Of a stretch of 64,000 bases of DNA, positions 772 to 37,918 are shown piece after piece. The stretch is from Zingiber officinale. Its lineage: Eukaryota; Streptophyta; Magnoliopsida; Zingiberales; Zingiberaceae. The notes under the pieces were generated by a model. The model searched no databases. It was not told the DNA's origin and saw only the letters and a program-made list of their open reading frames with translations. Each line of letters opens with the position of its first letter. The first letter of the stretch is position 1. The translations under genes were made by a program, and so were the position numbers. The stretch lies in NCBI RefSeq assembly GCF_018446385.1, contig NW_024589879.1, positions 1 to 64,000 on the forward strand. The letters are read 5' to 3'.

Positions 772-2195
772 TGTTGGTGCAAAATCCCTCAGGTCAAGGT
801 TGACCTGGTTAACCAAGCTGAGTCTTGGTTTGGGTTTAGATGTTTGACAATAAGATATTGATCGAAGAAGAGTCAAGTAGGTCAAGATTGACCGGATACT
901 TGACTAGGAAGTCCTAGTGAGTGAAGCTAGGCAGATGGAAAATCCTAGTGAGTGAAGCTAGGTGGAAATCCTGGTGAGTGAAGCCAGGTGAAAGTCCTAG
1001 TGAGTGAAGCTAGGCAGAAGGAAGTCCTAGTGAGTGAAGCTAGGCAGAAGGAAATCCTAGTGAGTGAAGCTAGGTGAAAGTCCTGGTGAGTGAAGCCAGG
1101 TGAAAGTCCTAGTGAGTGAAGCTAGGCAGATGGAAAACCCTAGTGAGTGAAGCTAGGTGAACGTCCTGGTGAGTGAAGCCAGGCAAGGAAGGAAATCCAG
1201 ATGGATCAAGGATGATCGGACATCTGGTGTTGGGAAGTCCAAGTAGGTCAAAGGATTGACTGGATACTTGGCAGGAAGGAAGTCAGATGGGTCAAGGTTG
1301 ACCGGACATCGGTGGAAGTCCAAGTAGGTCAATGGAGTGACCGGATACTTGCACGACGAGTAAAAGTCCAAGTGGGTCAAAGGGATTGACCGGACACTGG
1401 TGGGGAGTCCTAGCAGGTCAAGGGAGTGACCGATGCGAGGCATGATGTACCAACAGGTCAAGGTTGACCGGATGTTGGTTAGGGAGGATTGGGACTTGGT
1501 TTTGGGCAAAATCAAGTCCGGATCGATCCGTGGATCGATCCGGTGGATCGATCGGTGGATCGATCCAGTTCTTCTGGAAGCTCCGGATCGATCCGTGGAT
1601 CGATTCAGAGGTCCCGATCGATCAGCCGATCGACGGCTGCTTCGCGCGATAAGCGCTGGATCGATCCGTGGATCGATCCAGCGCGCTTCTGAGCACGGGC
1701 TCGGATCGATCCGTGGATCGATCCAAAGCCTCCCCGATCGATTCGGAACATTCGAATCGATCGGGATCCGACCGTTGCGTCGGGTTTAAAGCCGCAGGCG
1801 AGCGTGGTCTTCGGCAATCCTTTTACAAGCTCTTCTCAGATTCATTCCAGCTCCTCCACAGCTCTCTACAAGCACGTGATCGCCAGTTCTTGAAGGTTCT
1901 TGGAGGCTTTCCAAGTCAAGAGGCGGATCTATTGCAAGAGGAAGAAGTTAGGGTTAGGGTTTTTACTGCACATCTTGTAAGCTTTTGCTTAACTTGTATT
2001 TCCCTTTCTTCTTCTTGTATTGAGAGTGTTGTAGGGCTTCTCCACCTTTGGTAGTTACCATAAAGGAGTGTTATTCATAGTGGAGGGTGTGTGCGTTGGT
2101 GTGGATCCTTGGATTAGTCACCTCTTGTGAGGTGGATACCAAGTAAAATCCTAGTGTTAGCGTTTTGTGTTTGTTTCTGTATTTTCCGCTGCACA
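772..2195 (+). repeat. 5' LTR of element A, left part (hairpin arrays)
   Basis: It begins TGTTGGTGCAAAATCCC, as do the 3' LTR of A (22735) and, with one change, that of B (26938). In order it holds a GGTCAAGGTTGACC-type hairpin region, ten units of CCTAGTGAGTGAAGCTAGG or its CCTGG/CCAGG variant (913-1183), longer hairpin units (1197-1478), a dense cluster of GGATCGATCC palindromes (about 1513-1775), and a U5-like segment with GTTAGGGTTAGGG near 1950. Open frames on either strand here are by-products of the repeats. Confidence 0.92.
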
Positions 2196-2420
2196 CACTA
2201 CAAGAATTTTTGCATTCAACAACACCCAATAGACAACGCTTTTTAATAAAAACGTTGTCGTTCTTTGTTTTACAACGCTTTTAGTGAAAAGCGTTGTCTA
2301 TGGTATTTACTTTTTACTAAAGACAACGGTTTTTAATGAAGTGTTGTCTTTAGTGTTGTTGTTTATGGTCAAAGACAACATTTTTTTAAAAAACGTTTTT
2401 TAAAGTGTTGTGTATGTTTC
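2196..2420 (+). repeat. CACTA left terminal inverted repeat and subterminal repeats
   Basis: After the terminal CACTACAAGAA come several copies of ACAACGCTTTT in both orientations, often paired as short palindromes (AACGTTGTC, AAGCGTTGTC). In CACTA elements such subterminal motifs are binding sites for the TnpA-class protein. That role here is inferred. The same motif fills the right end at 17985-18386. Confidence 0.85.
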
Positions 2421-4313
2421 CCCTAAACTCACTTAAAATAAATTCGCAGCCCTCGCTTTGCTAAACTCTAAACCCTCAACGCGCGCGCGCCTTCTCCTCA
2501 CCACTCCTCTCCACGAGTTCTCCTCTCCACTCCTCTCCACGAGTGCCTTCTCCTCTCCTTCTCCTCTCCACGAGCGCCTTCTCCTCTCCACTCCTCTCCA
2601 CGAGCGCCTTCTCCTCTCCTTGCCGCGTGATCTCCTCTGAACCCTAATCTCGACCCAAACTCCTCACGCAAAACTCCTCACGCCGGCCCAACTCCTCCAA
2701 GTCGAGATCCCTAATCTCGCATTTCCCCATCTCCTCAATCAAAGTCAGCTTACCCTTCCTAATCTTCTCACGGCGGAGGCGACGGAGCCGAGATCCCTCA
2801 ATTTCTTCTACTATCCGACGGAGCCGTAGCACTGCCACGCGGTTCTTCGATCCGGCTCCTCGATATCTTTGCTCTTGCCCTCACTGTTCCTCCCTCTCTC
2901 TGCTCTTCCTTACCTTCACTGCTCGTTCTCGACTTCGCTCTCTCATCCCTTCGTAATGGCGTCTCCACGAGTGCCTTCTCCTCTCCTTCTCCTCTCCACG
3001 AGCGCCTTCTCCTCTCCACTCCTCTCCACGAGCGCCTTCTCCTCTCCACGAGCGCCTTCTCCTCTCCTTGCCGCGTGATCTCCTCTGAACCCTAATCTCG
3101 ACCCAAACTCCTCACGCAAAACTCCTCACGCCGGCCCAACTCCTCCAAGTCGAGATCCCTAATCTCGCATTTCCCCATCTCCTCAATCAAAGTCAGCTTA
3201 TCCTTCCTAATCTTCTCACGGCTCCTCAACTCCTCTGAACCCTTCGATCTTAGTTCCTTCCTCGCAGAGCAGATTCGAGAGTAGGAGGAACGGAAGAAAG
3301 AAAGGTAAAATTTCTTCCATCCCTCTAGAATAAGATTTTGTTTATTTTTGATTATTTTCCGAACTAGCCATTTTGCCGGATTCATACTGCATCAATTTTC
3401 CCCCTCCCCTGATTGTATTTTCTCATGATTTAATCTGGAATTTTTAAACGTTTAGCTATAGACTTTGGCAGTAGGTATTAATCCTTAAAAATAGCATGAA
3501 GCATATAACATGCTATCCTTTTTTCTCAAATTCAGTGTGAAGCTGTTGGCCAAGTTGCAGATATTATTCACATTCCAGCCTTTCTTTGTCGTCAGGTATA
3601 ATGTGCAGCTTGAAATTAATCAATCTCTAGTGTTATTCTACTATTATTTTTATTGTGTACCCTTAATGCGCAGAGAATATCTCTCATTTTTATTGTATCT
3701 AAAACTTGTGTTCTGCATTATCTCATCTTAATTCTGGGCAGTGACTTGTGCCTACTCAGTTTGTTGAATTTATATCAACTACTATTGTTATATTTATGTC
3801 ACATGCCTTCTAAGAGCTTAATGGCTTAAGTATGATTTAATACATCATGCACTATTGCATTGAGTTGCTTATGTTGATGTCCCTTTGAGGAAGTTGCAGA
3901 TTCTCAAGTGCTAAAGAAACAAAGTTGCTTATTATAAGTTATAATTCAAGCATTTTCCTGGAATGGTTTCATTTTTCAACTAAAGGTTAACATGTTTCAA
4001 TAGAGAATATGTTTTGGTGAATGCTCCAATATTATATGACTCTACAATTTATACCAAGGCAAAAGTACCTAACTACCTATACGTAGACTCTAACAAACAT
4101 GTACATATGGATAATATAGATAACTAGGTTATCTCCCCAAGTGAGAAAATTGCTATTGGGATTGCATTTTGATGAGAAACCTGTATGGTCAAAAATTTTC
4201 AGGTAGAAATACAATTTTGATTAATTGTTTAAATATTTTGTTATACTTTCACACTATTGTTTGTGTTAATATTTTTAGGTATTAGCTCATTGTTGATTGA
4301 TTAGTTATAAAGA
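2421..4313 (+). other. CACTA 5' region: GC-rich duplicated leader and probable first intron
   Basis: Bases 2500-3080 are rich in the unit GAGCGCCTTCTCCTCTCC. A block of about 150 bp at 2636-2785 is repeated almost exactly at about 3070-3225. The GC-rich block ends at a good donor-like site (AAAG then GTAAAATTTC, near 3305), and an acceptor-like TTTTTAG lies near 4280, shortly before the transposase ATG. I read this as an untranslated first exon plus an intron of about 1 kb. Short open frames in the GC-rich part look like repeat artefacts. The rest is AT-rich with nothing recognisable. Confidence 0.5.
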
Positions 4314-7300
4314 ATGGACAAAGATTGGATGTCAAAGGATAGACTATCACGTGAATATGAGAATGGAGTTGAGTCTTTCTTGCAATTTGCAATGGAAAAC
4401 ACTAATGATCCGAATATGGGAATATCTTGCCCATGTGCAAAATGTGGCAATCTAAAGAAGAAAAATATACAAACTATCAGGGCACATCTGTATTGTAACG
4501 GTATAGATATGACATATCATACATGGATATGGCACGGCGAAAGATCTACGATAGGGATTTCACAAAATGAAAGTGACCAAGTAGGGCCAAATGAATATGT
4601 TCGTGAGGAACCAATAAATATGGTTCATGATGCATATGATAGTTATGCTGAGAATCCAACCCAATTCAATAAGCTTCTTGAAGATGCCGAGACACCTTTA
4701 TATCCGGGATGCACTAAATTTACAAGGTTATCTGCAATTGTGAAATTATTCAACTTGAAGGCCAAATATAGTTGGAGTGATAAAAGTTTCACTGACCTAC
4801 TCAGTTTGTTAGGAGAAATACTTCCAGATGACAATAAATTGCCTTTATCTCTGTATGATGCAAAGAAAAGCTTATCTGCATTAGGGATGGATTATGTAAA
4901 AATTCACGCTTGTCCTAATGATTGTATCTTATACCGGAAGGAGTATGAGGATTTAACTAATTGCCCTACTTGCGGGATGTCAAGGTGGAAGTTGGGAAAA
5001 AAAATATGATAAATGAAGGAATTCCTGCCAAGGTTTTGTGGTACTTCCCCCCTATTCCAAGATTTCAAAGAATGTTTCGGAATAAAGAGATATCTAAGGA
5101 GTTGACTTGGCATGCCGAAAAAAGACTTTGTGATGGATATTTACGCCATCCAGCTGATACACCTTCTTGGAAAATAGTTGATCGCAAATGGCCAGATTTT
5201 GGTATTGAGGCAAGAAATCTCAGATTGGCTATATCAGCTGATGGGATGAATCCTCATGGTTTAATGAGTTCTGCATATAGTTGTTGGCCAGTTTTAATGA
5301 TTACTTATAATCTTCCTCCATGGTTGTGTATGAAGAGAAAATTTATGATGCTCACATTGTTAATTTCTGGTCCCAAACAGCCAGGAAATGATATTGATGT
5401 TTACTTAGCACCTCTAATTGATGACTTAAAATGCTTATGGGATATAGGTGTCGAAGCATATGATGCATATCGCCAAGAAACTTTTATGCTTAGGGCTATC
5501 TTATTATGGACGATCAATGATTTTCCTGCATATGGGAACATGTCAGGATGCATTGTGAAAGGATATCATGCATGTCCTATTTGTGGTGAAGATACCTATT
5601 CAACAAGGTTGAAGCATAGTAGGAAAATGTCTTATACAGGTCATAGAAGGTTTCTACCTGCAACTCATCCTTATCGAAGGCAACGGAAGGCATTTAATGG
5701 GAACCAAGAATTTAACCCTGCTCCAAAACCATTAAGTGGCGATGAAGTTTTTGAAAGAGTTGAAAGAATTAATTGTCATTGGGGAAAAATGAGTAGAAAG
5801 TCTCAGTCGAATGATGATGTAAAATCATGCTGGAAAAAAAATCAATTTTCTTTGAACTTCAGTATTGGAAACATCTATACATTCGACATGTTCTTGATGT
5901 GATGCACATTGAAAAGAATATTTGTGAAAGTCTTATCGGAACGTTACTTGATATTCCAGGAAAAACAAAGGATGGAGTAGCAGCGAGATTAGACCTTTTG
6001 GAAATGAATGTCAGGACAGATTTGGCACCAAGGATGGGGGAGAAGAAAACATTTTTGCCAGCAGCCTGTTATACACTTAGTAAGGATGAGAAAAGGAAAA
6101 TTTTGAATTCTTTGTTTGGAATACAACTTCCATCATGTTACTCATCTAATGTTAAAAACCTCGTGTCGTTGAAGGACTTAAAACTTATTGGCCTTAAGTC
6201 ACACGACTACCACGCTTTAATGCAACAATTGCTTCCTGTTGCGATACGTGGTGTTTTGCCCAAACATGTTAGAGACACTATCACTCGCTTGTGTTTCTTC
6301 TTCAATGTGTTATGTAATAAAGTGATAGATGTTTCAAGGATGGATGATATGCAAAGAGAGATTATGACAATATTGTGTTTACTTGAAAAGTATTTCCCCC
6401 CTTCATTTTTTGATATAATGATTCATTTAAGTGTTCATCTTGTGCGGGAGGTGAAACTGTGTGGACCGGTTTGGTATAGGTATATGTATCCATTTGAAAG
6501 ATACATGAAGATTTTGAAAGGTTATGTGCGAAATCGCAATCGACCTGAAGGGTGTATGGCTGAATCTTATATTGCTGAAGAGGCTGTTGAATTTTGCTCA
6601 GACTATCTGTCTAGTGTGCACACAATTGGGATCCCATCAAGTCATCGACAAATAGAACTTACTAAGCCTTTATCAGGTGCAGTAGTCTACTCCACTACTC
6701 ACGATGAGTTGACGCAAGCACATCGTTATGTATTGGCAAATGATGCTGAGATTGATCTCTATATCGAGTAATGTATCTAACTTATTAATATTTTAATGTG
6801 GTTTGCTTACATTCTGTTGGTTTATTTATACCAAATAATTTGATTAGGGAACACATGACGTATTTGAATGCAAGATTTCCTCGTAAGGCTAAGTCCAAGA
6901 AGTGGTTACAAGATGAGCATAATCGAACGTTTATTACTTGGTTGCGTGATCGTGTAAGTTTCTTTAGTATTACATATTGGCATACATTCATTTTCATATT
7001 TATGCATAATTAAATATTTATTGCATAAAAAATTTAGGTTGTTGATGTAGTTGACCATTCCACTCATCAAGTTTCAGAAAGATTGATGTGGATAGCTCAT
7101 GGGCCTAACAAGCAAGTACTAAAATACTCTAGCTATTTGATTGATGGGGTTACTTATGCTACAAAAGAGCGTGATGCTATACGAGTTGTTCAAAACTCCG
7201 GAGTCAGCTTAGTTGCAAAGACAATGCAAGTTGCAAGTGCAAAGGATAAAAATCCTATTGTGTCAGATATGGTTTTTTATGGAGTTATAGAAGAAATATG

Positions 7301-7685
7301 GGTAGTTGATTACCATAAATTTCAACTTCCAATGTTTAAATGTAATTGGGTGGAGCATAATAACGGCATTAAAGTAGATGATCTTGGTTTCACATTGGTA
7401 AACCTCAATAGACTTGGATTCAAATCTGACGCTTTTATCCTGGCAAGCCAAGCAAAGCAAGTATTTTACATTGAAGATCCTGAAGATCCTTTATGGAGTG
7501 TTGTACTTGCAACACCAAACAGAGACTACTTTGAATACCTAAAGGGCGAAGAGTTAGAGGACACTGCTATCCACTATCAATGTTTTAGTAGGGGGTTACC
7601 ATCAATGGATATTGACGGAGAAGATGATAATGAACCACCATGTATTCGTGAAGACTGTGATGGAAGTTGGATTGACAATATTTAA
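4314..7685 (+). pseudogene. TNP2-type CACTA transposase (two 1-nt frameshifts)
   Basis: Family knowledge: this enzyme cuts and joins the element ends in the nucleus. Probable exons are 4314-6767, 6848-6953 and 7038-7685, all with GT-AG introns that keep the frame. Visible order: an amino-terminal Transpos_assoc-type region (MDKDWM..., with CPCAKC and HTWIWHGE), the TNP2 core with Cys pairs (CPNDC, CPTCG, CPICGED), a DUF4218-type segment (about 6340-6610, with YPFERYMK), and a DUF4216-type region in the last exon. The frame shifts at the A8 run at 4997-5004 and again at the A8 run at 5832-5839. In both places one missing A explains the break. The start is the first ATG after the intron. It is either inactivated or affected by homopolymer errors in the assembly. 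Confidence 0.88.
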
Positions 7686-7943
7686 TTGCTGAATTTTTGC
7701 TTTTGATTATAAGTGTGTAAACAATTTACCTATGAGGATGAATTTGTGGACAATATTAATATGTTATATTCCTCACTTTAATTCGAATCAGATATGTTGT
7801 GATGTTATTGCAAGTTTCTGCTTTTATCTTTTATTTTTTTTCATACTGTTGTGAATTTGTTGGTGTAAATATATCATCTTGCTGTGAGTTTATGCATGTT
7901 TCTAACTAAACTTATGTTGATCAGTCTAAGTTGTTACAGATCA
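7686..7943. other. Spacer between the two CACTA genes
   Basis: AT-rich spacer of 258 bp between the transposase stop and the ATG of the second gene. It probably contains the transposase 3' end and the leader of the next gene. No coding signal seen. Confidence 0.4.
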
Positions 7944-9061
7944 ATGGATTCTACTAGAAAGAGTAAGAGAATAGGGCAACTTGCAAAGTTGGACAAGGGT
8001 AAAGAAGTCATTACAGCTGCCCGTGAAGAGAGTTGCGAGGGTGATAAAGTGTTGGATTCCAAAGACACTATCTCCTCAAGAACTTCTAGAGGTCGCACAC
8101 AGTTGGATAAGATTACAAAGCAAAGAATGCAAGGTATTAGAAATGAGGTGTCATTCAATAATTTTGGACAACCGATAGGACCAGCTGCTGTAGCCATGCA
8201 AAGTTACATTGGTGTCTTGGCTCGGCAAAAGGTTAATATTAAATACAAGACATGGAAGCAAGTCCCAATTGCTGTCAAAGAATTAATATGGGAATCAGTC
8301 AATGTAAGCAAGTTAGCATGTTTTAACAATTATAATATTTCACTACTAATGATAGATATATTTTATGTTTGTCTTAATTAATCTTATTAATGTTTTCCAC
8401 TTATTTGATGTACAGTTGATTTATAATGTTGACTCAAAGTGGAAAAAGGGATGTTTGAGGTCTGCAAACAGTAAGTGGAGGCAATACAAGACCCATCTCA
8501 CCCAAAAATTTATTTTAAGCAGGCGTGACAAACCTGAGGAGTTGAATGAGCCACCTATTGGCTTTGAAATTACAAGAGAAGATTGGCGTGCGTTTGTCAT
8601 TAGTCGCATTTCTGAAGATTTCATTGTAAGATTCTAAATTTTTTCTTTTGAAACTATTCGATCATAATTCATTATGTATTATTCAAATTTGATATGTCGC
8701 CTGTTTGAAATAACTAGAAACTCAGTGATCAACAAAAAGAGCGAAGGAAAAAAAATAGATATCCTCATCGACTCTCACGCAAAGGGTATGCACGCTTTGC
8801 TGAAGAAATTGTAAGTATTTTTAAAATATATTTCCTCTAAGAACCCTCTAATTGATTCACATTAAATTATTTCACATTTGTTATTTGATTTTTCTTTGTT
8901 GTAGGGGACTGAATTATGTGATGATAATGACATCAATAGAGCTATTATGTGGAAGAAAGGACGCGCCAACAAAGGAGGAGAGTTTGAAGGTGAAGATTTG
9001 GTGGACACAGTACACAAGATTGTAAGTAAATTTTCATGTTCTTCTGATAATGACTTCAATA

Positions 9062-9260
9062 TATCTTCTAGTTTTCGAGAGTAAAGTTGCATGCATGCAT
9101 ACCCTTTGCGTGAGGAAGCCAAGGCAAGCAGTGCAATGAGGAGTTTAACAGCCATTCCTTGCATAGCTTGAATTCTCAGTACTAGAGCATGTATTGAGGA
9201 AGTAAATGGTGAATGAATGCATTGAGAGCTTAGAGGTGACGGGTTTATATAGAACAGATG
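9062..9260 (-). pseudogene. Probable captured promoter and signal-peptide exon (antisense, in CACTA intron)
   Basis: On the minus strand a TATA-like TATATAAACCC (about 9250-9240) is followed after about 85 bp by ATG GCT and a hydrophobic leader beginning MAVKLLIALLALASS, then by an abrupt change of sequence. This layout, core promoter plus leader plus secretory signal start, looks like the 5' end of a host gene and has nothing to do with the transposon frame around it. The coding part is too short to name the gene. A 19-nt inverted copy of a transposon exon sits exactly where the leader breaks off (9096-9114). Confidence 0.45.
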
Positions 9261-10700
9261 TGGATTTACTAGGTATCTAGGTTTGAAATGTTCTTACTTG
9301 GAGAAGAGATCAAGTCGAAAAGTCTATTACATGCAGTGGTTTCCTTTTGCTGCAATCAATTAATGGTGAATGCATTGAGAACTTAGAGGTGATAGCTAGA
9401 GTTTCTATAGAACAGATGCAGATAAATCAACCAGGTTTGAAACGTTCTTGGCAGTAAGAAATTTGTAAGCTTCAGTAACCCAAGGGCCAGTAAAGTTGTT
9501 CCCCAGACCACTGCTCTGAAGCTTCTATTATGTTTTCCCACTTAGGAAATATAGATTAAAGAATATATAACAACCATTGCTAAATGTGTATAACTTTTAT
9601 AATTTCACATCGTTTATTTATTAATTGTTTACGTACATATTTTCATCTTAAATTTATTTTTCAGTTTTTTCTTGATAAGTATAACTTTGATTATTCTCAT
9701 GTCTTATATTTTTCATTGTCATATGTCCACATATTCATCCTAATATTCTCATCTACATTTCCTTATAAATAACTCATTATCTCCTATTTTAATACCGATC
9801 TTATTATTATATTATATGCTTATAGAAAATGGAAGGTGTGATACGCATGCACTTACATTACATTTCACAAAAAGCTAATTCTATAAGCAAAAATTAGATC
9901 CAGAAGAAGAAACAAAATTGAGATAAGATAAAGGACTGAAGGAGAAGTTTGTTTGGTCTACCGGCCCGCCTAACATTACAAAATTGAGATAAGATAAAGG
10001 ACTTAAGATAAACAAAATTTGTTTGTTTGGACTTACATTACATTTCATGCATGTCCGATACTTCCCTAACTTCTCCTACTGGCCCGCCAGTTAACTACAG
10101 GTAACAGCAACAAAAGAACAAACAGTGCTTTTCATTCACATTCATTGTTAATTTGTATAAAAGAAAGAGAGGGAGCTTCAGAGAACTAACTCACCTCCTT
10201 TAGCATCAAAGACTTCGGAATAACACTGCATACAAGGACATAAGTGCATGAGGCACAACTCAATTAATAAGTTAATAAGAAACGATATATTAAAATGAAC
10301 TCTTTAATTTGTATACACATTTAGCAGGTTTACTTTTGATTATTCTTTCCTGCAACTCCAGACAATTAGCTTCAATTATGTGGTGGTCCTCTCTTTATGG
10401 GTTTGTGTAGTGAAAATTTATTAAAATTTTGTCATTTTATTAAACTTGTAGTCAATTGCTCAATCAAATATGTGCCTTTTTTAGAACTGTGCAGAAGTAA
10501 ATATATGATTGAATGCCAAAAAAGGAAAAAATATTTCAAAGTCAACTTCATATTTGTTCAATATGACTTACTAAGCACTTGACTTGAGCTATCACGGGAA
10601 GAACCGACCTGGACATCAGTATTTTTTAAACCAATATTGCATATCCTTGGTAATTATCCTTGGTAAAGTACTGATAATTCTTTTTAATGTTGCATTACAG
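9261..10700. other. Foreign-looking filler in the large CACTA intron
   Basis: Bases about 9188-9290 and 9358-9440 are diverged copies of one promoter-like sequence (shared CATTGAGA, TTAGAGGTGA, AGAACAGATG, AGGTTTGAAA). Bases 9911-9937 and 9978-10004 share ACAAAATTGAGATAAGATAA, and TACCGGCCCGCC recurs nearby. No gene can be named. The block ends at the acceptor TGCATTACAG before the exon at 10701. Confidence 0.4.
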
Positions 10701-13579
10701 GATGAATATATACAGCAAAAGAGGGAGGGTAAGCTGCAATGCGAAGGAGCAAAAGAGGATATTCTTACCAAGGCACTTGAAACTCAGGAATATTCTGGGC
10801 GTGTCCGGGGTATCGAGGTCATATCAACCCAACAATCTATTTCAATGTTGGTAGAACAAGGAAGAAATATGATGTTACCCTAGATATAATCGCTGAGCAT
10901 AAAAGGGAGCTGAAGGAGGCGAAGATGCAAATTTTAGAACAAGATGTACGCATCCAAAAACTTGAAGCATTAATGCATAAAAGGGGTGCATGGGACAATT
11001 CAATTGATGACAAAGGCAGTTGCTCGGTGAAGTTTCATCAGAAGAATATTGAAGAAGATGACGTACAGATTGTGGGTAAAGACGAAGTTTTACAGGTAAA
11101 ATACAAGTTATAGTGATATTCATTATTATTATAGCATTATAAACTAAATATAATCAACATGTTTTTTTTTAATATTTTAGGGTCAATCAGTTGCATTGAC
11201 ATTGGAATCTTGCTCAAATATTGCATATGGTACAATTGTTTGTTTCAATGGCATGGAAAAAATGCTTCATGGTATTCCATTTCCCAAGAATTGCATTCGA
11301 GTCTCCATTGATCAAGCAGTGGACAAATCCGCTCCTTTGCCATATCCAATTCCAAGTGAATGTGAAGTAATTGGTGATGCCATAGGAACTGTTGTGGCTT
11401 GGCCTGAACAGCAGATTGTGAAGCAAGATGAGGTATATGAGATATTATATTTCTAATTATATTGTCACTTTATTATTATATTTCTAATTATATTGCCACT
11501 TTATTATTATTCAACCTAGCTATCTAACTTGTTTATATTTGAAATTATTAGAAGCCTAGAAGGAAGAAGTTTGAACGAAAAAAATCAAAACCTACTTTGT
11601 CAACAAGTGTCCCAAGATCATTACATATGTTATATTGTTACAGTAAGCATGCTCTAGATGGAGGAAAATGTATATCAATGTGCTTAGATAATGAAGTGTT
11701 TGATGAAGATTGTGAACTTTTTCTTGACCTTGAGGACATCAATTCTTTGTATCATTTGGAGGCAATTTCAGGAAATTTGATCGTTGCCTACATATGGTAA
11801 GTAAGTTTATTTAAGCAATTTCAGCAACTTTTTCATCACATGTTTGCTTCCCAATTTTAGCAACTTATTATGGTTTATTGTTACAATTTCACCAACTTAT
11901 TATGAGTGATCATTATTTTTTAATCCACATGATTGTTTTGTTAGTAAATTTTATTATTTAGTATCTAAATATTATTTTCTCGGTTGCAACTGCATTGCTT
12001 TACTTATGCTGGGAAATTACTGCATTGCTTTATGTTTGCTGGGAAATTCTAATATCTAGCAAGACAGAAAATCCCTGATTTGAACTGCAAGAAGTTTACT
12101 AATATTGTTGTGTGAACAAGTTTACTCTTGAAAAATTCAACTTCTAGTAATTTTCTCATACCATGTTATTCTCATTAAGTTAATAGTTCATCATTTCTAT
12201 TGAGAGGTTTACTAATATCAATTGATGTGGTACACTTTACATAAATATAGCTCATTCATTTTCAACCGGCCCTTAATGTTTGGCTTCTGCCATTTGTTCT
12301 TCTAGACAGGAAGTACTTTGCTCATATCTTTTTTCTTGTATATTTTTAAGTATCTTAAATGTGCTTGTCCTCAAGAAATAAAAGAATTTGCATGTATACA
12401 TTTCTGGTATGTTTAATATGCAAGACTGTTCATAGTAAGTTCTCATGTATGGATGTTACTATCATCAACCATAACTTAGTGTTATGAGTGATCATTATTT
12501 TTTCCAACTTATTATGAGTGTTTTGTATCTAAATTTTATTATTTAGTATCTAAATATTTTTTTTCTTTGCAATGATAGGTGTCTGTATAAAAAGATGGTG
12601 AAAGATACCAAGACAAAGAAATTCAGATTTATGAATCCTCACAAACTCCCATATCTGGCAAAAACGGCACAAGACAAATCAGTTAAGCTTGAAACCCTGA
12701 ATCAAAGGGCAACTCTTTTAGCAGATAAGCTGACAAGTGCATCAATAGATCAACTAGTGTTAGTGCCATGTAATGTCGGGTAAGCAAGAAGTAAAACATC
12801 ACTTTCAATTGCTTCCTTTCGATAATTTATTCAATTTTATGATCTAATCCTATGTATTTGCCTAGTTTCCATTGGAATCTTAGTGTTATTGAACCTTACA
12901 AGGATGCTATTTACCTGCTGGATTCCCTAAGTTGCCGCATTCGCGATGATGATTCAAAATACGTAATGGAAATGTGAGTTCAGATTTCTTTTAGTAAATA
13001 TTTATTATAATAAAAATCTTATTTAACAAATATTCTTAACGTATGAAGGGCCTTAAAATTGTTTAATTCAACCAAGGGAAGGAAAGGTAGGAAAAATGTT
13101 AAGTGGGAAGTAGTTAAGGTATGTGTACTTTTGTTTAACATATATTGTAATGTGTATAATTTTCATTAACAATTTGACTCTAATTACTATATATAGGCTC
13201 CTCAACAACCGGATGCGAAACAATGTGGTTTTTTTGTGATGCGCTTTATGAGAGAAATTATTGAAGAAGTTGAGACTATTGAGAGAGATTCACTGCAATC
13301 AATAGTAACATTATTTAGCTTATCTCAAATTATTTGACATAAACTATTTAAAATTGCAAAGTGATCAGTGTTGATTATTTTTTCCATTAACATAAATTGT
13401 GTATGCTCACAGTTCACAAAAAAAGGGTACTCTCGTGAACAAATTGATGAGGTTCGGTCCGAGTTGGCGGAGTGCATACAAGATCATATTTATGAATAGG
13501 TATGGAATGATAGTTGCCATAATTCTATTTAGATTTAAGTTCATGGAATGGTGGTTTTTTTTGGTGGAATCATAGTTAA

Positions 13580-13760
13580 TGCCAATTTTTTTGATGCAGT
13601 GCATAGTTACCAGATCGACCTTGAGCAGTTGACCCCAAAGAAAAGTTGTCATTGAAGTTTAAAAACTTGTGAAAATTTTTAGTGAATGATGATGTTTTGT
13701 GAATGATGATGTTTTGGAAAAATTGTCACTTAGGTGAAAGGATGTTTTCTGGATTAATAT
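13580..13760 (+). repeat. CACTA 3' segment, first copy of a diverged duplication
   Basis: It contains GCCAATTTTTTTGATGCAGTG, then CTTGAGCAGTTG, AAAGAAAA and TTGTCA, followed by a run with GATGATGTTTTG and GGATTAATATG. The same order of motifs returns at about 17400-17830. The two copies flank the block that holds the captured host gene fragments. Confidence 0.5.
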
Positions 13761-15059: not shown

Positions 15060-16340
15060 GTTCTAAAATATAGTAAGCATTGTAGAGTCTGTGACAAATG
15101 CGTTGATGGCTTTGATCATCATTGCAGGGTGAGGGTTTTCTCCATTCACAACCTTATATGTTTTGTTATCTTGTAGTAATATGCAGTATTCATCTTTCCT
15201 TGTAGTGGATCAATAACTGCATAGGAAGAAAAAATTACAAAAGGTTCTTCATCCTCATGGTGTTTGCTCTTCTCTTGGTAAGCACAAATATTTCCTACCA
15301 TTCCAATAGTTGTATTCATTAATCATGCATAGTGATTGACACTATTTTCTTAGTGTAGATTTATCATCTGTGTGCATCAACTTAGAAGATACTATTTTCT
15401 TAGTACGTGAAGGACCTGATACATAGAATGCATTTTATGTCAGGTCCTTTTCATTCTGATTGACTATTGATTGGTCTCCATGCTTTGTGCACCTTGGGCC
15501 AGCTTATTCTGCAGTGGGCTGTTGGGATGCTTGTGCTGATACTGTGTTTTGTTGAGAGAAGGAGATTTTCTGCTGAAATTGTTTCAAAGCTGGGTAGTAG
15601 CTTTTCCTTGGCACCCTTTATCATTGTGGTGGTGAGTACTCAGAAGAGAAAATGAATGAAAATCACACATCATAATGAGGATTTTTCAAGGTTCTGATAC
15701 TAATTTGATAATGTCTCTATAATGCAGGCTGTGTGCACTTTATTAGCCATGGTTGCTACTCTTCCAGTTGCACAACTTTTCTTCTTCCATATTCTTTTAA
15801 TAAAAAAGGTACACTACTTTCATATTTCTACTTGTGACACAGCAAACACTACCAGTTACACAGCTCCTACATTTATATAAAACAAACCTATGTATCCGGT
15901 CAAATATCTCTATTTCAAGGAATATATCTTTTATATTTTCAAATTCTTTGCATTCATCCATACACTGAGCATTACTGAAACTTATTATCCAACTGAACTA
16001 TTACAGCTTGTTATTTAACTGATAGATTTTCCATAGTGGAAAACAAATAGTAGAATTTGAACGATATGGTGTTGTTTATTCATCAATTCTGGAGAAAATT
16101 GACACTTTAACTAGCTCATGCTACTCTACATGGATGCGCTTACAGGGAATCAGCACCTATGATTACATTATTGCTTTGAGGAAGCAAGATCAGGAGCAGG
16201 AGCAACTTGCTGTTGGTGGGCAGCAAAGTCCGCAAATGTCCCAAGTGAGCTCTTTTACTGGACTAAGCAGCACCAGTTCTTTCAATCAATTCCATCGCGG
16301 TGCATGGTGTACTCCGCCAAGATTATTCCTTGAGGATCAG
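15060..16340 (+). pseudogene. Captured fragment of a DHHC-type protein S-acyltransferase gene (introns retained)
   Basis: Exons: 15060-15128, 15206-15277, about 15484-15631, 15728-15808 and 16146-16340, each with GT-AG borders. The first two encode the Cys-rich DHHC core ([17 protein letters not shown], then WINNCIGRKNYKRFF), which in intact enzymes forms the palmitoyl-transfer centre. The next two carry hydrophobic membrane segments (AVGMLVLILCFVE; LLAMVATLPVAQLFFFHILL). The last begins GISTYDYIIALRKQ, the motif following the last membrane helix in plant PATs of the PAT19-22 type. The amino-terminal membrane helices and the carboxyl end are missing, so it is a truncated copy. Exon junctions look undamaged, suggesting a fairly recent capture or capture from an intact donor gene. 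Confidence 0.85.
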
Positions 16341-18389: not shown

Positions 18390-18483
18390 TCCAAGAAGAA
18401 ACAAGCAACGCCAAGCAACGAAGCGCACCGAGCGAACGCGACGAGCTATTCACCCCCCCCTCTAGCTACTTTTGGTCCTAACA
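18390..18483 (+). repeat. 5' LTR of element A, right end after the CACTA insertion
   Basis: It continues the LTR seen uninterrupted at 24159-24252 (AAGCAACGAAGCGCACC ... CTAGCTACTTTTGGTCCTAACA). It ends in CCTAACA, which pairs with the TGTTGG start, and is followed two bases later by the primer binding site. Confidence 0.93.
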
Positions 18484-18485
18484 AG

Positions 18486-18501
18486 TGGTATCAGAGCGAG
18501 G
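18486..18501 (+). promoter_or_regulatory. Primer binding site of element A (initiator tRNA-Met type)
   Basis: TGGTATCAGAGCGAGG starts two bases after the LTR end. TGGTATCAGAGC is complementary to the 3' end of plant initiator tRNA-Met, the usual copia primer for minus-strand DNA synthesis. It fixes the LTR end and the plus orientation. Confidence 0.93.
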
Positions 18502-20371: not shown

Positions 20372-22720
20372 ATGGGTTAGAGAGTGTCAACTCCGATTAG
20401 AAGGGTAGTTAACCCAACTTTGAGGAAATTGACACTCAAGGAGCATTTTCAAGGTTTTTGTTAACCTTTGAAAATGAAATGGGACTATTATTTACTCCTT
20501 GAAAGAGTAAAATGTGCCTAGTGGTGAAAAAGTGATTTAATCTTTAAATGGCACATATTGGGAAATTCATAAGAACTACCAAGTTGGGATTTTGGTATGT
20601 TCTTAGAAAATTTAAGGCAATCCGGGCCTTAATATAAAAGTGCTACTCTTGTGGAAAAATGAAATATGCCAACATTTGAGGAATATGCTTAATTTCAATT
20701 GGCATAAATTAATCAAGGGAATTAGAAATGCCAATTTAGGTTTTGGCATTTTCTTGAAGCACTTTAGGGCAATCTAGGTTTAAGTTGTAAGTTTAGCTAA
20801 TGGTTTAAGGATACTTAGATAGTTAATCTAGGTATATTTTATTTATGCTAAATCTTGCCATGATTGTTTGCCCATCATATGCCATGACATCATGTCTATT
20901 TTTGCATTCATGACTTATTATGAAAAAGACAAAAATACCATGTCATGACATTCATACATCATGTAGCTATAGGATATCTTTCTTTTGAAAGTTATTTTAT
21001 TTTGATGTATGCCATAACATTATCATGCATTAAGTTTAATTCCTTGTAATTAAGGACAAATGGCATTTAACAACACTTATTAACAAGTGACATCCTTGGT
21101 GGATGTCTAATATATATCTAAAATGCCTAGATAGATATGCATGATCCCTAGATTAGGGCAAAACCAAAATCTACATCTCACAAGACCTATAAGATGACTT
21201 GTATGTGTTTTAGTGCACATTAGATACAAGTGAGATGTTAGGATGATGAACAAAACTCAAGATGTTGATTTAGTGCATTCTTTTGAGTTTTAGGTTCATC
21301 AAAACACATAGTTATGTGTTTTCCCATCATTGGGAAAGCTAATGTACAAGTCATGTGCATTAAGCCCAAGGAATATGGTGGGATATTGGTTTTGAAAATG
21401 TTTTCAAAATGATTTTGGAAAAACCTTGGTGAAGGCTATCTTTTGATAGTAATCACCATTGAATAGTTAGACACAAACTTGAAGAAAACACTAAAGTTTT
21501 TGGAAGTTTTCAAGTTTGTGTCAATCTTTGAAAATATGATGTATTTTCATAGAAAACTATTTTTCCTTGATAGTATATGCCCTAACTAATGTCTACACGA
21601 AATTTCATAATTTTTGGATTTTTGTAGAATTTTCTAGGGGTTTCTGAAGTTGACTGAAATGGAATTTCAGCAACTATCAGAGCTCCGATCGATCCATGGA
21701 TCGATTGGAGTTGCTGAATCGATCCATGGATCGATTCAAACGGCAATTCCCGCGAGCGATCAGTCGATCGATCCAGGGTAGTTTGAATCGATCAGTGGAT
21801 CGATTCAGCAAGGTTCAATCGATTGGAACCCAACTCCAATCGATCCAAGTTGCTGATTTTGGCTGGGAAAGCCTGATTTCAGCACTTTGAACCTATTTTA
21901 GTCAATGTAACCTTTCCAAACCCCTAAATATACATTTGTATACATAAGGAGGGTGTTTTCATGTGAAAACAAGGATGGATTGGTTAAGGAAGGCTAAGTT
22001 GAAGTTTAGGTTGAGGTTTGTTTCAAATTTTGAATATTTGAACCTCAAAACTTCTACAATTGGGTTTCCTAAAGGTTTAGGGATTCCAAGTCATTGTTGG
22101 TGCAATGACAGAAGTTACCACCATGTCTTTAGGGGGAGGGACTCTTTAAAGACATGAAAATTATTTTTCATAAACCTTGGAAGGTGGTTAACCTTCTGTT
22201 AAGAGAATGCTCATGGATGAGCAGTTGAACTTGAAATGGGGAGTGGATATCCTCATTATTTCAAGTGGGAACTCAAGGGGGAACTCAAGTGGTTAGAAAA
22301 TGCTCAAGGTTGGGTATTTGTCTACATTGAGGGAGAAGTTAAGGATAAATGAAGGGTATGAGACCTTCATTATTGTGTTGATCACAATGAGTGAGGTTGT
22401 GATCACGATGAGCAACTCTTCAGGGGGAGAGTCTTCAACAGATGAAGTTGTTGAAGTGTGCCCAAAATTGGAGCATAGGTTGATGTGTGTCCAAAGACGG
22501 GTTGATGTGTTTTATGAGTAGGGGGTTGATGTGTGCCAATAGGGGGAGAATGAAAGGAAGTAAGTTAGGTTTTCATTACCTAGAGGGAGTTTGCCCTCTT
22601 AGGGGAGAATGAAAAGCTTAACTTATGTGTTCATTACCTAGTGGCATGAAGAAGAAGGCTATAGGATTAGCCTAACTTACATGTGGGATTGTAAGTGTTA
22701 TTGTGGTATTGTCAAACATC
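20372..22720 (+). other. Non-coding internal region of element A in place of pol
   Basis: About 2.3 kb conserved with B (24585-26923) but without a long frame on either strand. It includes a cluster of GATCGATCC palindromes (21686-21846) like those in the LTR and, near the end, pieces with GGGGGAG. Conservation between siblings without coding capacity suggests cis-acting sequence or simple recent common descent. Confidence 0.6.
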
Positions 22721-22734
22721 AAAAAGGGGGAGAT
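22721..22734 (+). promoter_or_regulatory. Polypurine tract of element A
   Basis: AAAAAGGGGGAGAT lies directly before the TGTTGG of the 3' LTR. It is the expected primer for plus-strand DNA synthesis. The same tract precedes the LTR of B and, on the minus strand, the LTRs of C, D and E. Confidence 0.88.
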
Positions 22735-24252
22735 TGTTGGTGCAAAATCCCTCAGGTCAAGGTTGACCTGGTTAACCAAGCTGAGTCTTGGTTTGGGTTT
22801 AGATGTTTGACAATAAGATATTGATCGAAGAAGAGTCAAGTAGGTCAAGATTGACCGGATACTTGACTAGGAAGTCCTAGTGAGTGAAGCTAGGCAGATG
22901 GAAAATCCTAGTGAGTGAAGCTAGGTGGAAATCCTGGTGAGTGAAGCCAGGTGAAAGTCCTAGTGAGTGAAGCTAGGCAGAAGGAAGTCCTAGTGAGTGA
23001 AGCTAGGCAGAAGGAAATCCTAGTGAGTGAAGCTAGGTGAAAGTCCTGGTGAGTGAAGCCAGGTGAAAGTCCTAGTGAGTGAAGCTAGGCAGATGGAAAA
23101 CCCTAGTGAGTGAAGCTAGGTGAACGTCCTGGTGAGTGAAGCCAGGCAAGGAAGGAAATCCAGATGGATCAAGGATGATCGGACATCTGGTGTTGGGAAG
23201 TCCAAGTAGGTCAAAGGATTGACTGGATACTTGGCAAGGAAGGAAGTCCAGATGGGTCAAGGTTGACCAGACATCTGGTGGAAGTCCAAGTAGGTCAATG
23301 GAGTGACCGGATACTTGGCACGACGAGTAAAAGTCCAAGTGGGTCAAAGGATTGACCGACACTGTGGGGAGTCCTAGCAGGTCAAGGGAGTGACCGATGC
23401 GAGGCATGATGTACCAACAGTCAAGGTTGACCGGATGTTGGTTAGGAGGATTGGGACTTGGTTTTGGGCAAAATCAAGTCCGGATCGATCCGTGGATCGA
23501 TCCAGCCGTTTTTCCAGAGGACAGATCCGCACTGAATCGATCAGATCCACGGATCGATCCGTGGATCGATCAGAGGTCCCATCGATCGTCGATCGATCGG
23601 GACGATGCTTCTTCGCGCGATAGCGCCGGATCGATCCGTGGATCGATCCAGCGCGCTTCTGAGCACGAAGCGCTGGATCGATCCGTGATCGATCCAAAGC
23701 CTCCGATCGATTCGGAACATTCGAATCGATCGGGATCGACCGTTGTGTCGGGTTTAAAGCCGCAGGCGAGCGTGGTCTTCGGCATCTTTACAAGCTCTTC
23801 TCCGATTCATTCCAGCTCCTCCACAGCTCTCTACAAGCGTGATCGCCATTTCTTGAAGGTTCTTGGAGGCTTTCCAAGTCAAGAGGCGGATCTATTGCAA
23901 GAGGAAGAAGTTAGGGTTAGGGTTTTTACTGCACATCTTGTAAGCTTTTGCTTAACTTGTATTTCCCTTTCTTCTTCTTGTATTGAGAGTGTTGTAGGGC
24001 TTCTCCGCCTTTGGTAGTTACCATAAAGGAGTGTTATTCATAGTGGAGGGTGTGTGCGTTGGTATGGATCCTTGGATTAGTCACCTCTTGTGAGGTGGAT
24101 ACCAAGTAAAATCCTAGTGTTAGCGTTTTGTGTTTGTTTCTGTATTTTCCGCTGCACATCCAAGAAGAAACAAGCAACGCCAAGCAACGAAGCGCACCGA
24201 GCGAACGCGACGAGCTATTCACCCCCCCCTCTAGCTACTTTTGGTCCTAACA
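22735..24252 (+). repeat. 3' LTR of element A (1518 bp, uninterrupted)
   Basis: It is the complete reference copy for the disrupted 5' LTR: TGTTGG start, hairpin units (22836-23440), GGATCGATCC cluster (about 23478-23738), U5-like part and CCTAACA end. It is followed by the TSD AGAAG and then, in phase, by the gag of B. Confidence 0.94.
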
Positions 24253-24257
24253 AGAAG

Positions 24258-26937: not shown

Positions 26938-28456
26938 TGTTGGTGCAACATCCCTCAGGTCAAGGTTGACCTGGTTAACCAAGCTGAGTCTTGGTTTGGG
27001 TTTAGATGTTTGACAATAAGATATTGATCGAAGAAGAGTCAAGTAGGTCAAGGTTGACCGGATACTTGACTGGGAAGTCCTAACTGGCATGTTAGGCAGA
27101 TGGAAAATCCTGGTGAGTGAAGCCAGGTGAAAGTCCTAGTGAGTGAAGCTAGGCAGATGGAAAACCCTAGTGAGTGAAGCTAGGTGAAAGTCCTGGTGAG
27201 TGAAGCCAGGTGAAAGTCCTAGTGAGTGAAGCTAGGCAGATGGAAAACCCTAGTGAGTGAAGCTAGGCAAGGAAGGAAATCCAGATGGATCAAGAATGAT
27301 CGGACATCTGGTGTTGGGAAGTCCAAGTAGGTCAAAGGATTGACTGGATACTTGGCAAGGAAGGAAGTCCAGATGGGTCAAGGTTGACCAGACATCTGGT
27401 GGAAGTCCAAGTAGGTCAAAGGATTGACTGGATACTTGGCAAGGAAGGAAGTCCAGATGGGTCAAGGTTGACCAGACATCTGGTGGAAGTCCAAGTAGGT
27501 CAATGGAGTGACCGGATACTTGGCACGACGAGTAAAAGTCCAAGTGGGTCAAAGGGAGTGACCGGACACTTGGTGGGGAGTCCTAGCAGGTCAAGGGAGT
27601 AACCAGATGCGAGGCATGATGTACCAACAGGTCAAGGTTGACCGGATATTGGTTAGGGAGGTTTGGGACTTGGTTTTGGGCAAAATAGCGCCGGATCGAT
27701 CCGTGGATCGATCAGTGGGATCGATCGCTGGATCGATCCGCATTCTTCTGTCGCGAAGCTCGGATCGATCCGTGGATCGATCAGAGGTCCCGATCGATCA
27801 GCGATGGACGCGGCTGCTTCGCGCGATAAGCGATGGATTGATCCGTGGATCGATCCAGCGCGCTTCTGCACGCGGGATGCTCGGATCGATCCGTGGATCG
27901 ATCCAAAGCCTCCCGATCGATCGGAACATTCGAATCGATCGGGATCCGCTGCGTCGGGTTTAAAGCCGCAGGCGAGCGTGGTCTTCGGCATCTCTTCACG
28001 AGCTCTTCTCAGATTCATTCCAGCTCCTCCACAGCTCTCTACAAGCACGTGATCGCCAGTTCTTGAAGGTTCTTGGAGGCTTTCCAAGTCAAGAGGCGGA
28101 TCTATTGCAAGAGGAAGAAGTTAGGGTTAGGGTTTTTACTGCACATCTTGTAAGCTTTTGCTTAACTTGTATTTCCCTTTCTTCTTCTTGTATTGAGAGT
28201 GTTGTAGGGCTTCTCCGCCTTTGGTAGTTACCATAAAGGAGTGTTATTCATAGTGGAGGGTGTGTGCGTTGGTGTGGATCCTTGGATTAGTCACCTCTTG
28301 TGAGGTGGATACCAAGTAAAATCCTAGTGTTAGCGTGCTTGTGTTTGTTTCTGTATTTTCCGCTGCACATCCAAGAAGAAACAAGCAACGAAGCGCACCG
28401 AGCGAACGCGACGAGCTATTCACCCCCCCCCCCTCTAGCTACTTTTGGTCCTAACA
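26938..28456 (+). repeat. 3' LTR of element B (1519 bp)
   Basis: Same family as the A LTRs (TGTTGGTGCAACATCCC ... TTTTGGTCCTAACA), but with fewer CCTAGTG units and an extra copy of the longer hairpin unit. A novel stem variant, CCTAAC / GTTAGG, appears at 27079-27096. It is followed by element D LTR sequence. Confidence 0.92.
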
Positions 28457-28493: not shown

Positions 28494-29575
28494 TGTAAGA
28501 CCGTTGAATTCGATAGAGGGGGGGTAAATATCGATTCGAAAATCTCGAGTTAAAACGCAGCGAAAAAGTAAGGAAGTAAAGAGATGAACACGGTTGATTT
28601 TTACTTCGTTCGGAGCCTGTGACGACTCCTACTCGAAGGCCCGTACTCCTTGAGTACTTTCGTTGGGCAATTCACTAGCAATTCGGATAATTACAATTTA
28701 CGTACAAATATTGCTAATGAAAGAAAAACAAAGCTATACCGACAACTAATGAATTAAAAGAAAACCGGAGTGAGTCGTCGAAGCTTTGTGAACGTCGTTG
28801 GAGCGCAGAGTAGCAGAGTGATTGAGCTCAGAGTTCTCAGAAAGCAGATGTATTGAAGCTCCTGCCTGGGGCTTCTTTTATATGCTGCTCCGGGCGCCTG
28901 GATCCCTTCCGGGCGCCTGGATCCCTTCCGGGCGCCTGGAATGTGACGTAACACTCCCAACCAGCATGCTCCAAGTGTCAACGTCGTCCTGGGGATAAAA
29001 CTTGCCTCCGGGCGCCCGGACCCCTCTTCTCTAGAAAGTCCTTCTCCTGTAAGAAAAGGTTAGTCCGAGGTAAAATGTACCCTGCAGCAAAGATTGTTAG
29101 CACAGTTTTATAGATAAGCAAAGTATGACTTAGATTCCGTCTTTCCGAGACCGGAATCTAGTCACGATCTCGACTTAGATATCCGAAATGGATCTAAGCC
29201 GGATCGACGCCTAATGTTCCCTTCCCGGGAACGCGTCCTCGCAGTCACTCCCCTCCAGTGACTTACCTTACTTACCTGCCAGACGTCCGGTCAGCCCTTC
29301 GACCCGTCTGGACTTCTCGCCAGCTATCCGGTCAGCCCGTCGACCTACCTGGACTTCTCGCCAAGCGTCCGGTCAGCCCGTCGACCCGCTTGGACTTCTC
29401 GCCAGCTATTCGGTCAGCCCGTCGACCTAGCTGGACTTCGTGCCAAACATCTGGTCGACCTGTCTGGACTTCTCCTGCACACTTTATCAAAGTGTCAGAC
29501 AACAACAGACTAACTTAACCTGATTTGTCATTCATCAAAACCTGGGTTAAATCGTTAGTGCTAACCGCACCAACA
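28494..29575 (-). repeat. 3' LTR of element C (left side)
   Basis: On the plus strand it runs TGTAAGACCG ... CGCACCAACA. It contains three copies of the GC-rich CCGGGCGCCTGGA unit near 28890-28940, where the right LTR has one, and a hairpin array (29279-29474) with stems such as CCAGACG/CGTCTGG and CCAAGCG/CGCTTGG. Confidence 0.94.
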
Positions 29576-36849: not shown

Positions 36850-37918
36850 TGTAAGACCGTTGAATTCGATAGAGGGGGGTGAATATCGATTCGAAAATCT
36901 CGAGTTAAAACGCAGCGGAAAAGTAAGGAAGTAAAGAGATGAACACGGTTGATTTTTACTTCGTTCGGAGCCTGTGACGACTCCTACTCGAAGGCCCGTA
37001 CTCCTTGAGTACTTTCGTTGGGCAATTCACTAGCAATTCAGATAATTACAATTTACGTACAAATATTGCTAATGAAAGAAAAACAAAGCTATACCGACAA
37101 CTAATGAATTAAAAGAAAACCGGAGTGAGTCGTCGAAGCTTTGTGAACGTCGTTGAAGCGCAGAGTAGCAGAGTGATTGAGCTCAGAGTTCTCAGAAAGC
37201 AGATGTATTGAAGCTCCTGCCTGGGACTTCTTTTATATGCTGCTCCGGGCGCCTGGAATGTGACGTAACACTCCCAACCAGCATGCTCCAAGTGTCAACG
37301 TCGTCCTGGGGATAAAACTTGCCTCCGGGCGCCCGGATCCCTTCCGGGTGCCCGGACCTCCGGGCGCCCCCCGGGCCCCTCTTCTCCAGAAAGTCCTTCT
37401 CCTGCAAGAAAAGGTTAGTCCGAGGCAAAATGTACCCTGCAGCAAAGATTGTTAGCACAGTTTTATAGATAAGCAAAGTATGACTTAGATTCCGTCTTTC
37501 CGAGACCGGAATCTAGTCACGATCTTGACTTAGATATCCGAAATGGATCTAAGCTGGATCGACGCCTAATGTTCCCTTCCCGGGAACGCGTCCTTGCAGT
37601 CACTCCCCTCCAGTGACTTACTTTACTTACCCTTCGACCCGTCTGGACTTCTCGCCAGCTATCCGGTCAGCCCGTCGACCTAGCTGGACTTCTCGCCAAG
37701 CGTCCGGTCAGCCCGTCGACCCGCTTGGACTTCTCGCCAGCTATCCGGTCAGCCCGTCGACCTAGCTGGACTTCGTGCCAAACATCTGGTCGGCCCGTCG
37801 ACCTGTCTGGACTTCTCCTGCACACTTTATCAAAGTGTCAGACAACAACAGACTAACTTAACCTGATTTGTCATTCATCAAAACCTGGGTTAAATCGTTA
37901 GTGCTAACCGCACCAACA
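36850..37918 (-). repeat. 5' LTR of element C (right side)
   Basis: Nearly identical to 28494-29575 apart from minisatellite length changes: one CCGGGCGCCTGGA copy instead of three, a longer CCGGGCGCCC run near 37330-37375, and a missing first hairpin half near 37633. It is followed by the TSD CTTTG and element D LTR. Confidence 0.94.

Follow-up and report, generated by a model that had tools for sequence, protein, structure and literature searches.

Covarying outer stems and a fixed bulge in a row of hairpins in the LTRs of Sireviruses of ginger

Palindromic repeated motifs are described in the LTRs of 13 Sirevirus elements in the part of PMC2829016 consulted here, and two papers that cite Bousios et al. 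2016 (PMC10760457 and PMC5311732, in the sections consulted) relate that the palindromes of Sirevirus LTRs fold and attract small RNAs. PMC10760457 (same sections) also asks why structures that the host can recognise are common in elements. In a window of 64,000 nucleotides of Zingiber officinale, by which we mean the whole stretch of DNA analysed, the U3 of related LTRs carries a row of bulged hairpins that follow the plan CC-N5/GGTC-loop-GACC/GGA/N5'-GG.

Ty1/copia elements are nested in one another throughout the window, and related LTRs occupy 772-2195 (with the remainder at 18390-18483), 22735-24252 and 26938-28456, at identities of 95% and 88%. We call the 5' and 3' LTRs of element A A5 and A3, and the 3' LTRs of elements B and C B3 and C3, respectively. 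The TSD of element A is AGAAG (767-771 and 24253-24257), and its host site is the gag of element B, as 1-771 resembles 19285-20044; the 5' end of B lies beyond the edge of the window. The 5' LTR of A is in turn split by the insertion of a CACTA transposon of 16.2 kb (2196-18386; ends CACTACAAGAA; 3-bp duplication ACA) with transposase-associated, tnp2 and DUF4218 domains. On the minus strand we find Sirevirus C, which has LTRs at 28494-29575 and 36850-37918, the duplication CTTTG, a PPT and a PBS, and the domains RVT_2, rve and gag_2; the site of its insertion reads as the start of a further Sirevirus 3' LTR (37919-38000, minus strand) with a PPT octamer at 37983-37990, the rest of which is present within the window only as fragments. 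Element D, also on the minus strand, has LTRs at 46030-47083 and 48583-49602 that are 88% identical and a very short internal part of 1.5 kb; it possesses the PPT octamer, which is the one Sirevirus mark examined in it, as well as GGCGCC palindromes and TATAAA. The features of the elements that carry the hairpins are the following:

772..2195, plus strand: Sirevirus A 5' LTR, part 1, 95% identical to 22735-24169
18390..18483, plus strand: Sirevirus A 5' LTR, 3' end, with a poly-C tract at 18453
18486..18497, plus strand: primer binding site TGGTATCAGAGC, with the LTR/PBS junction CA-AGTGG-TATCAGAGC
22707..22815, plus strand: inverted repeat on either side of the junction between PPT and 3' LTR, with its arms at 22707-22724 and 22798-22815
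22725..22734, plus strand: terminal polypurine tract AGGGGGAG followed by AT
22735..24252, plus strand: Sirevirus A 3' LTR, array parts 22836-22866, 22876-23146 and 23160-23442
26938..28456, plus strand: Sirevirus B 3' LTR, ten bulged (H) units in 27039-27653, including an extra u3/u4 pair
29279..29467, minus strand: C 3' LTR hairpin array, five units with other arm letters, homologous to the A array
37655..37810, minus strand: C 5' LTR hairpin array, four units (a fifth is truncated)

The LTRs with the hairpin row belong to Sireviruses (Ty1/copia), as judged by the marks given in the consulted part of PMC2829016. The AGGGGGAG octamer stands 10 bp 5' of the 3' LTR both in A (22725-22732) and in B (26928-26935), followed by AT and then by the TG of the LTR, and PPT copies are found upstream at 22131, 22422, 22541 and 22725 in A and at 26337, 26624, 26743, 26803 and 26928 in B. 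The inverted repeat around the PPT/LTR junction, with 18-nt arms that are 94% complementary, is present in both A and B; it is known from PMC3601003 (part consulted), and it is a single structure, apart from the hairpin array. In A the LTR end CA, the 5-nt spacer and the PBS read AACA-AGTGG-TATCAGAGC (18480-18497), and in the LTRs of A and B the poly-C integrase signal close to the 3' end appears as C runs at 18453, 24222 and 28423. A TATA box would be expected a short way behind the repeated-motif cluster; a scan for the TATA motifs TATA[AT]A and TTTAAA revealed only TTTAAA in A and B (LTR position 1019/1022), and TATAAA at LTR positions 464 and 694 in C and 718 in D. Most inner palindromes of the hairpins read [AG]GGTC..GACCGG, which is half of the RM-box signature with its CGG-CCG core. 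Element A gives a weak match to Retrotran_gag_2 (E 7e-4, below the curated cut-off) and contains gag-like sequence that is matched by the gag of C in tblastn (E 3e-16), while no match to the pol of C was detected in 18484-22734 of A (tblastn, E 1e-3), nor any pol match with the C proteins in the matching stretch of B (24253-26937). Judging from its coding content, element A is probably a non-autonomous member, and the large number of array copies (3452 first-look candidates) suggests a successful non-autonomous family.

Each unit comprises an outer arm of seven letters, GGTCA, a loop, TGACC, GGA or AGA, and the second outer arm. Eight bulged units are present in each A LTR and ten in that of B. 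In A5 the units, the sister array that lies between the first two of them, and the palindrome cluster that follows the row are arranged as follows:

873..903, plus strand: unit u1, TCAAGTA/TACTTGA, outer arms paired at 7/7, inner arms at 5/5
906..1189, plus strand: sister (T-type) array, in which seven CCTAG/CTAGG and three CCTGG/CCAGG short hairpins follow each other at a period of about 26-31
1197..1227, plus strand: unit u2, CCAGATG/CATCTGG with inner arms GATCA/TGATC, 7/7 and 5/5
1239..1271, plus strand: unit u3, CCAAGTA/TACTTGG, outer 7/7, inner 4/5 with a G.T
1284..1313, plus strand: unit u4, with deletions in both arms in A5; intact as CCAGATG/CATCTGG at 23248-23278
1320..1352, plus strand: unit u5, CCAAGTA/TACTTGC (GG changed to GC in A5), outer 6/7, inner 5/5
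1368..1401, plus strand: unit u6, one base missing in A5, 5/7
1409..1440, plus strand: unit u7, CCTAGCA/TGCGAGG, 6/7; the paired TGCTAGG occurs in other genome copies
1449..1479, plus strand: unit u8, ACCAACA/TGTTGGT, outer 7/7, inner 5/5
1511..1780, plus strand: GATCGATC palindrome cluster, the strongest fold of the LTR

Five of these units (u1, u2, u3, u5 and u8) had been named in the original prediction and are found in their places with the arms given for them, as are the joint change of the inner arms to GATCA/TGATC at 1197-1227, the GGA/AGA spacer, and the recurrence of units in the LTRs that start at 22735 and 26938. That prediction had overlooked three units (at about 1284-1313, 1368-1400 and 1409-1440) as well as the short sister hairpins in the 26-bp repeat and the array of family C. 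The spacer is shortened to GA (2 nt) in u7 of A5 and A3 and in u6 of A3. In the 24 units that were measured, 274 of the 288 stem cells are Watson-Crick pairs and 14 are not; this count leaves out two units with deletions in the outer or inner arms (A5 near 1284, A3 near 23413) and a bulge-free hairpin at about 789. The copy of u6 in B3 (27540-27573) reads CCAAGTG/CACTTGG and pairs at 7/7. Compared with B, element A exhibits several single-base deletions, most of them within homopolymer runs, at 1284-1313, 1368-1401, 23335-23366 and 23413-23442; real decay and assembly error cannot be told apart for these A-copy deletions. As to the T-type hairpins, they use the TCC..GG frame found in the bulged units, and B3 contains seven of them, including one at 27079-27096 (CCTAAC/GTTAGG) with a new stem and a new loop.

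The array of family C resembles that of A at 70% over 165 nt (blastn, E 1e-14) and uses outer arms CCAGACA, CCAGCTA, CCAAGCG and CCAGACG. Its inner arms read GGTCGAC..GCTGACC, without TTGACY, and five of the six aligned units have G.U as their innermost pair when read on the sense strand. A geometry scan of the window found no bulged hairpin units in element D, so that the row is not universal. The same geometry with any letters yields 102 clusters on the plus strand, compared to 28-45 in 10 shuffles, and many of these clusters are A+T-rich. Thus, the geometry is not rare, and the evidence lies in the covariation of the arms.

Within the window, the six stem types of A and B pair at 41 of 42 outer positions, compared to a mean of 25.5 when the arms are re-dealt, and the true pairing stands alone among the 720 possible orders; for the four C stem types the figures are 27 of 28 and 20.0 (1/24 orders), and for the ten types of A/B and C taken together 68 of 70 Watson-Crick pairs and 42.4, with a maximum of 62 in 200,000 re-dealings. 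These tests omit the variants that occur in a single LTR copy (A5 u5, A5 u6, B3 u8, C3 u4 and A3 u6), and therefore for u6 the A copies stand against B3 u6. Retaining all 10 distinct A/B stems gives a mean of 6.3 of 7 pairs for an arm with its own partner and 3.98 for crossed arms. In an alignment of 15 distinct, hand-picked units (A1), 97.1% of the outer and 98.7% of the inner cells are paired, or 97.8% altogether, against 83.5 in shuffled alignments (0/500); two-sided change is seen in 8 pairs versus 4.7 (1/500), among the outer pairs in 6 of 7, and in 32 cells versus 9.6 (0/500), and the score is 0.531 versus 0.232 (0/500). Four of the five whole-structure measures thus beat at least 499 of the 500 shuffles, and the remaining one, the number of further pair types, is not above its control (14 versus 13.2, 213/500). 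When the register of the alignment is slid, at most 38.3% of the cells are paired, and RNAalifold returns the same 12-pair structure from the 15 units. Stem types that differ by one compensated base pair form four pairs, for instance among CCAAGTA/TACTTGG, CCAAGTG/CACTTGG and CCAAGCG/CGCTTGG. Since the units are related by descent, these permutation counts do not amount to probabilities.

With respect to folding energy, the region 772-1510 is far below its dinucleotide shuffles on both strands (z -7.0 on the plus and -9.1 on the minus strand, 0/20 shuffles each), and so are its parts 1190-1482 (z -4.1, 0/200) and the sister array 906-1189 (z -5.3, 0/200). The GATCGATC cluster (1511-1780) reaches z -8.15 (0/200), and even the array-free part of the LTR, 1781-2200, folds somewhat better than its shuffles (z -2.4, 2/100). 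The fold of the C array is modest (z -2.14, 7 of 200 shuffles as good) and no better than that array-free part. According to the rule for miRNA-like structure given in the consulted sections of PMC10760457, i.e. 110-nt windows below -40 kcal/mol, 31 of 141 windows qualify in A3, with starts at 661-961, which places them in the GATCGATC cluster and in the final unit of the array, and 29 of 98 in C3, the array included; the H and T arrays of A3, with a mean of -32.6 kcal/mol, are not miRNA-like by this rule. Further windows below -40 kcal/mol occur in the internal region of A at 21604-21893. Change within element A is locally concentrated in the GATCGATC region (1483-1780), a hotspot where its two LTRs differ at 45 of 292 aligned sites, compared to 0-2.4% elsewhere. 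Independent variation of the arms and folding at the level of shuffled sequence had been named beforehand as outcomes that would speak against the prediction, and neither was seen in this simplified analysis, which compared the arms with re-dealt partners, also across many genomic copies, and the folds with dinucleotide shuffles.

The unit can also be counted in the whole genome (3.09 Gb, 211 contigs) with a frame in which AGTCC, GGTC, GACCGGA and GG are fixed and five positions per arm are left free. This frame has 41,883 + 41,781 = 83,664 matches, and the reversed control pattern has 1. The samples of 100 places discussed below are the first in contig order rather than random ones (contig C1; C1-C5 for the position-4 sample). 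Among the first 100 units listed, all five free positions are paired in 84, versus 16.1 after re-dealing (maximum 30 in 10,000); reduced to their 22 distinct arm pairs, they show 93 of 110 paired cells versus 57.3 (maximum 79 in 100,000). The six commonest arm types make up 80 of these 100 units. Chance pairing within the frame is rejected by the background loci among the matches listed, of which none of 121 (5 viral and 116 prokaryote) is fully paired, compared to 8 of 9 in the window. When position 3 of the arm is forced to be other than A, 6,044 matches are obtained, and in the first 100 listed the letter opposite T is A in 90 of 91 cases, that opposite C is G in 6 of 7 and that opposite G is T in 2 of 2; 48 of these units pair at all five positions and 44 at four, the latter mostly TAGCT/TGCTA. 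With the arms fixed and the spacer free between 0 and 8, there are 16,672 matches, and the spacer is 3 nt long in all of the first 100 listed (90 GGA, 8 AGA and 2 GAA). In 38 loci chosen by similarity, with the outer arms unconstrained, we found 256 units with 55 distinct arm pairs, 193 of which units pair at 7/7; the ten commonest arm pairs all do so with the exception of CCTAGCA/TGCGAGG (6/7). Loci picked by the frame (L160-L189, whose overlaps may cause units to be counted twice) show 7/7 pairing in 86 of 110 units, and changes at position 2 are kept paired in them (CTTAGCA/TGCTAAG and CTAAGTG/CACTTAG). Twenty stretches of 3 kb taken blindly to content contain three units, which share a single stretch and pair at 6/7, 7/7 and 7/7. 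Array copies with the best scores have 97-99% identity with the window, and the unit letters were not found in two scans of viral contigs.

Pairing is kept in the lineages that spread, where letters found in many copies are mostly paired, and probably decays in stray copies. Units with C or T at arm position 4 are rare (409 matches, the listed places mostly scattered), and in the first 100 listed full pairing is absent in 98, with position 4 itself paired in 2; such uncompensated rare letters would reflect neutral decay after insertion. The exceptions that have spread sit at position 7, beside the bulge, namely A.C (2,485) and T.T (TAGCT/TGCTA, common). Many of the A.C units, and a few of the G.U units, come in pairs separated by about 5 kb in the list, the spacing that the two LTRs of a single element should have, which indicates that a mismatched form has spread. 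If selection acted on the sense RNA only, G.U should be tolerated better than A.C. No such wobble signature is seen at position 7 of AAGTR arms, with 289 G.U versus 2,485 A.C, and AGACR arms are about balanced (173 versus 198) and lend no support to RNA. Sense-RNA wobble is thus unsupported as a proof of selection at the RNA level, and the imbalance in AAGTR seems to be dominated by one spread subfamily. The molecule that folds may be DNA or an RNA, from one strand or the other.

In the scenario we favour, with moderate confidence, the likeliest cause of the kept pairing is selection on shape at the time when the elements were active. The array is then the region of palindromic repeated motifs known from the U3 of Sireviruses, in a structural form in which the inner palindrome GGTC..GACC and the 3-nt bulge on the 3' side are near-constant, and the outer stem of about 7 bp varies but stays paired. 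The inner palindrome and the bulge would be recognised by their letters, whether at the promoter by a DNA-binding factor, on the folded strand by Gag or a host protein, or in both ways. The outer stem would be kept just to present them, selection holding its pairing and not its letters; a sequence-read inner part within a shape-giving outer part should show just this combination of near-constant inner letters and near-constant outer pairing. In LTR elements, the U3 of the 3' LTR is located at the 3' end of the genomic RNA, where the array could thus fold. Small RNAs derived from the hairpins may be a side effect, in analogy to the palindromes of maize Sireviruses. It is possible, if distinctly unlikely, that the outer arms record an arms race, in which small RNAs made from the hairpins by the host favour changed arm letters, the element needs the bulged hairpin for its own replication, and the arms hence change only in compensated pairs. 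In that case, the tens of thousands of units in this one genome would be mutants, supplied by nature, of a cis-acting structure whose GGA bulge is read by sequence, and could be used as a mutational scan.

The same compensated arms could be produced by a mutation process, in which the nascent strand folds back during reverse transcription and one arm is copied from the other, in the manner of quasipalindrome-type template switching. Such copying would explain why letters present in many copies are two-sided and rare letters one-sided, and palindromes may provoke rearrangement, as the 45 of 292 differing sites of the GATCGATC cluster would illustrate. However, arm copying should remove or mirror the bulge, whereas the spacer is 3 nt in 100 of the 100 units listed and in both families of alignment A1; nor are the inner letters, nearly constant where the outer ones vary, in its favour. 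We regard this process as the main rival, though rather unlikely. The original prediction read the kept pairing as the signature of selected base-pairing, and the covariation, the fixed bulge and the uncompensated rare letters do favour selection, although templated mutation retains the chance just given to it. 

The near-constancy of the inner letters would also follow if the inner palindrome alone mattered, as a dyad-symmetric transcription-factor site multiplied into an enhancer, with the outer pairing incidental. Candidates for such a site are the W-box-like TTGACC of A and B and the Sirevirus repeated motif, and regulatory palindromes upstream of the TATA box are indeed proposed in the consulted part of PMC2829016. 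TTGACY on either strand occurs 16, 16 and 19 times in the U3 arrays 772-1510, 22735-23473 and 26938-27683, compared to a shuffle expectation of 1.2-1.5 per array (0/1000 each), i.e. it is more than 10-fold enriched, and once in 1511-2199, compared to 0.5 in shuffles. Yet the inner palindrome of C does without TTGACY, and a WRKY W-box array is rejected as the shared principle; moreover, the compensated outer arms would have no explanation, so that a site of this kind as the whole account is very unlikely. There is, finally, a slim chance that pure descent suffices, a few perfect inverted-repeat units of chance origin having been amplified and their pairing reflecting the youth of the copies rather than constraint. 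The dominance of a few arm types (six in 80 of the 100 listed units) and the 97-99% identity of the best array copies agree with this explanation, but in four cases two stem types are separated by a single compensated base pair, and the arrays of the two families align at only 70%, which together require repeated two-sided change.

The original prediction also held that no LTR feature of this kind had been described. This is not so for palindromic motifs and siRNA-dense hairpins, which are published; it may stand for an outer stem that covaries around a fixed bulge, which was not found in the literature searched (Bousios et al. 2016 being known to us via the papers that cite it), and a paper search with the unit letters gave no match. 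The closest described counterpart are the RM boxes (Bousios et al. 2010, PMC2829016), which according to the part consulted also belong to Sireviruses and likewise repeat a dyad-symmetric unit many times within the upper half of the LTR, their place there being upstream of the TATA box, and the inner GGTC..GACC of the hairpins resembles CGGTC(A/T)GACCG and CGGTCGACCG, listed there (Table 3) for Osr8, Osr10 and Vitis. However, an RM box as given there is one motif of 10-20 nt with a consensus per element, and arm covariation is not described in that part; in contrast, the hairpin of ginger is longer, its one-sided bulge is fixed, and its outer stem differs from unit to unit and yet remains paired. 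The palindrome region of maize Sireviruses, for which the consulted sections of PMC10760457 give the consensus CACCGGACNNNGTCCGGTG, is similarly a cis-region of LTR hairpins that evolves fast. It is defined by folding energy and the mapping of small RNAs, and compensated arms or a bulge are not reported in these sections, whereas the present row is known from sequence alone. The GATCGATC cluster satisfies the -40 kcal/mol rule, as do parts of the C array, and the H and T arrays of A3 do not. With 83,664 exact matches the frame offers a scale that allows counting, and a function of the hairpins on the side of the element becomes testable when two-sided changes are counted against one-sided ones. 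In the high-copy forms, it is the pairing itself, and not sequence alone, that is kept through the change of letters, and this bears on the question raised in PMC10760457 (sections consulted) of why elements so commonly contain structures that their hosts can recognise.
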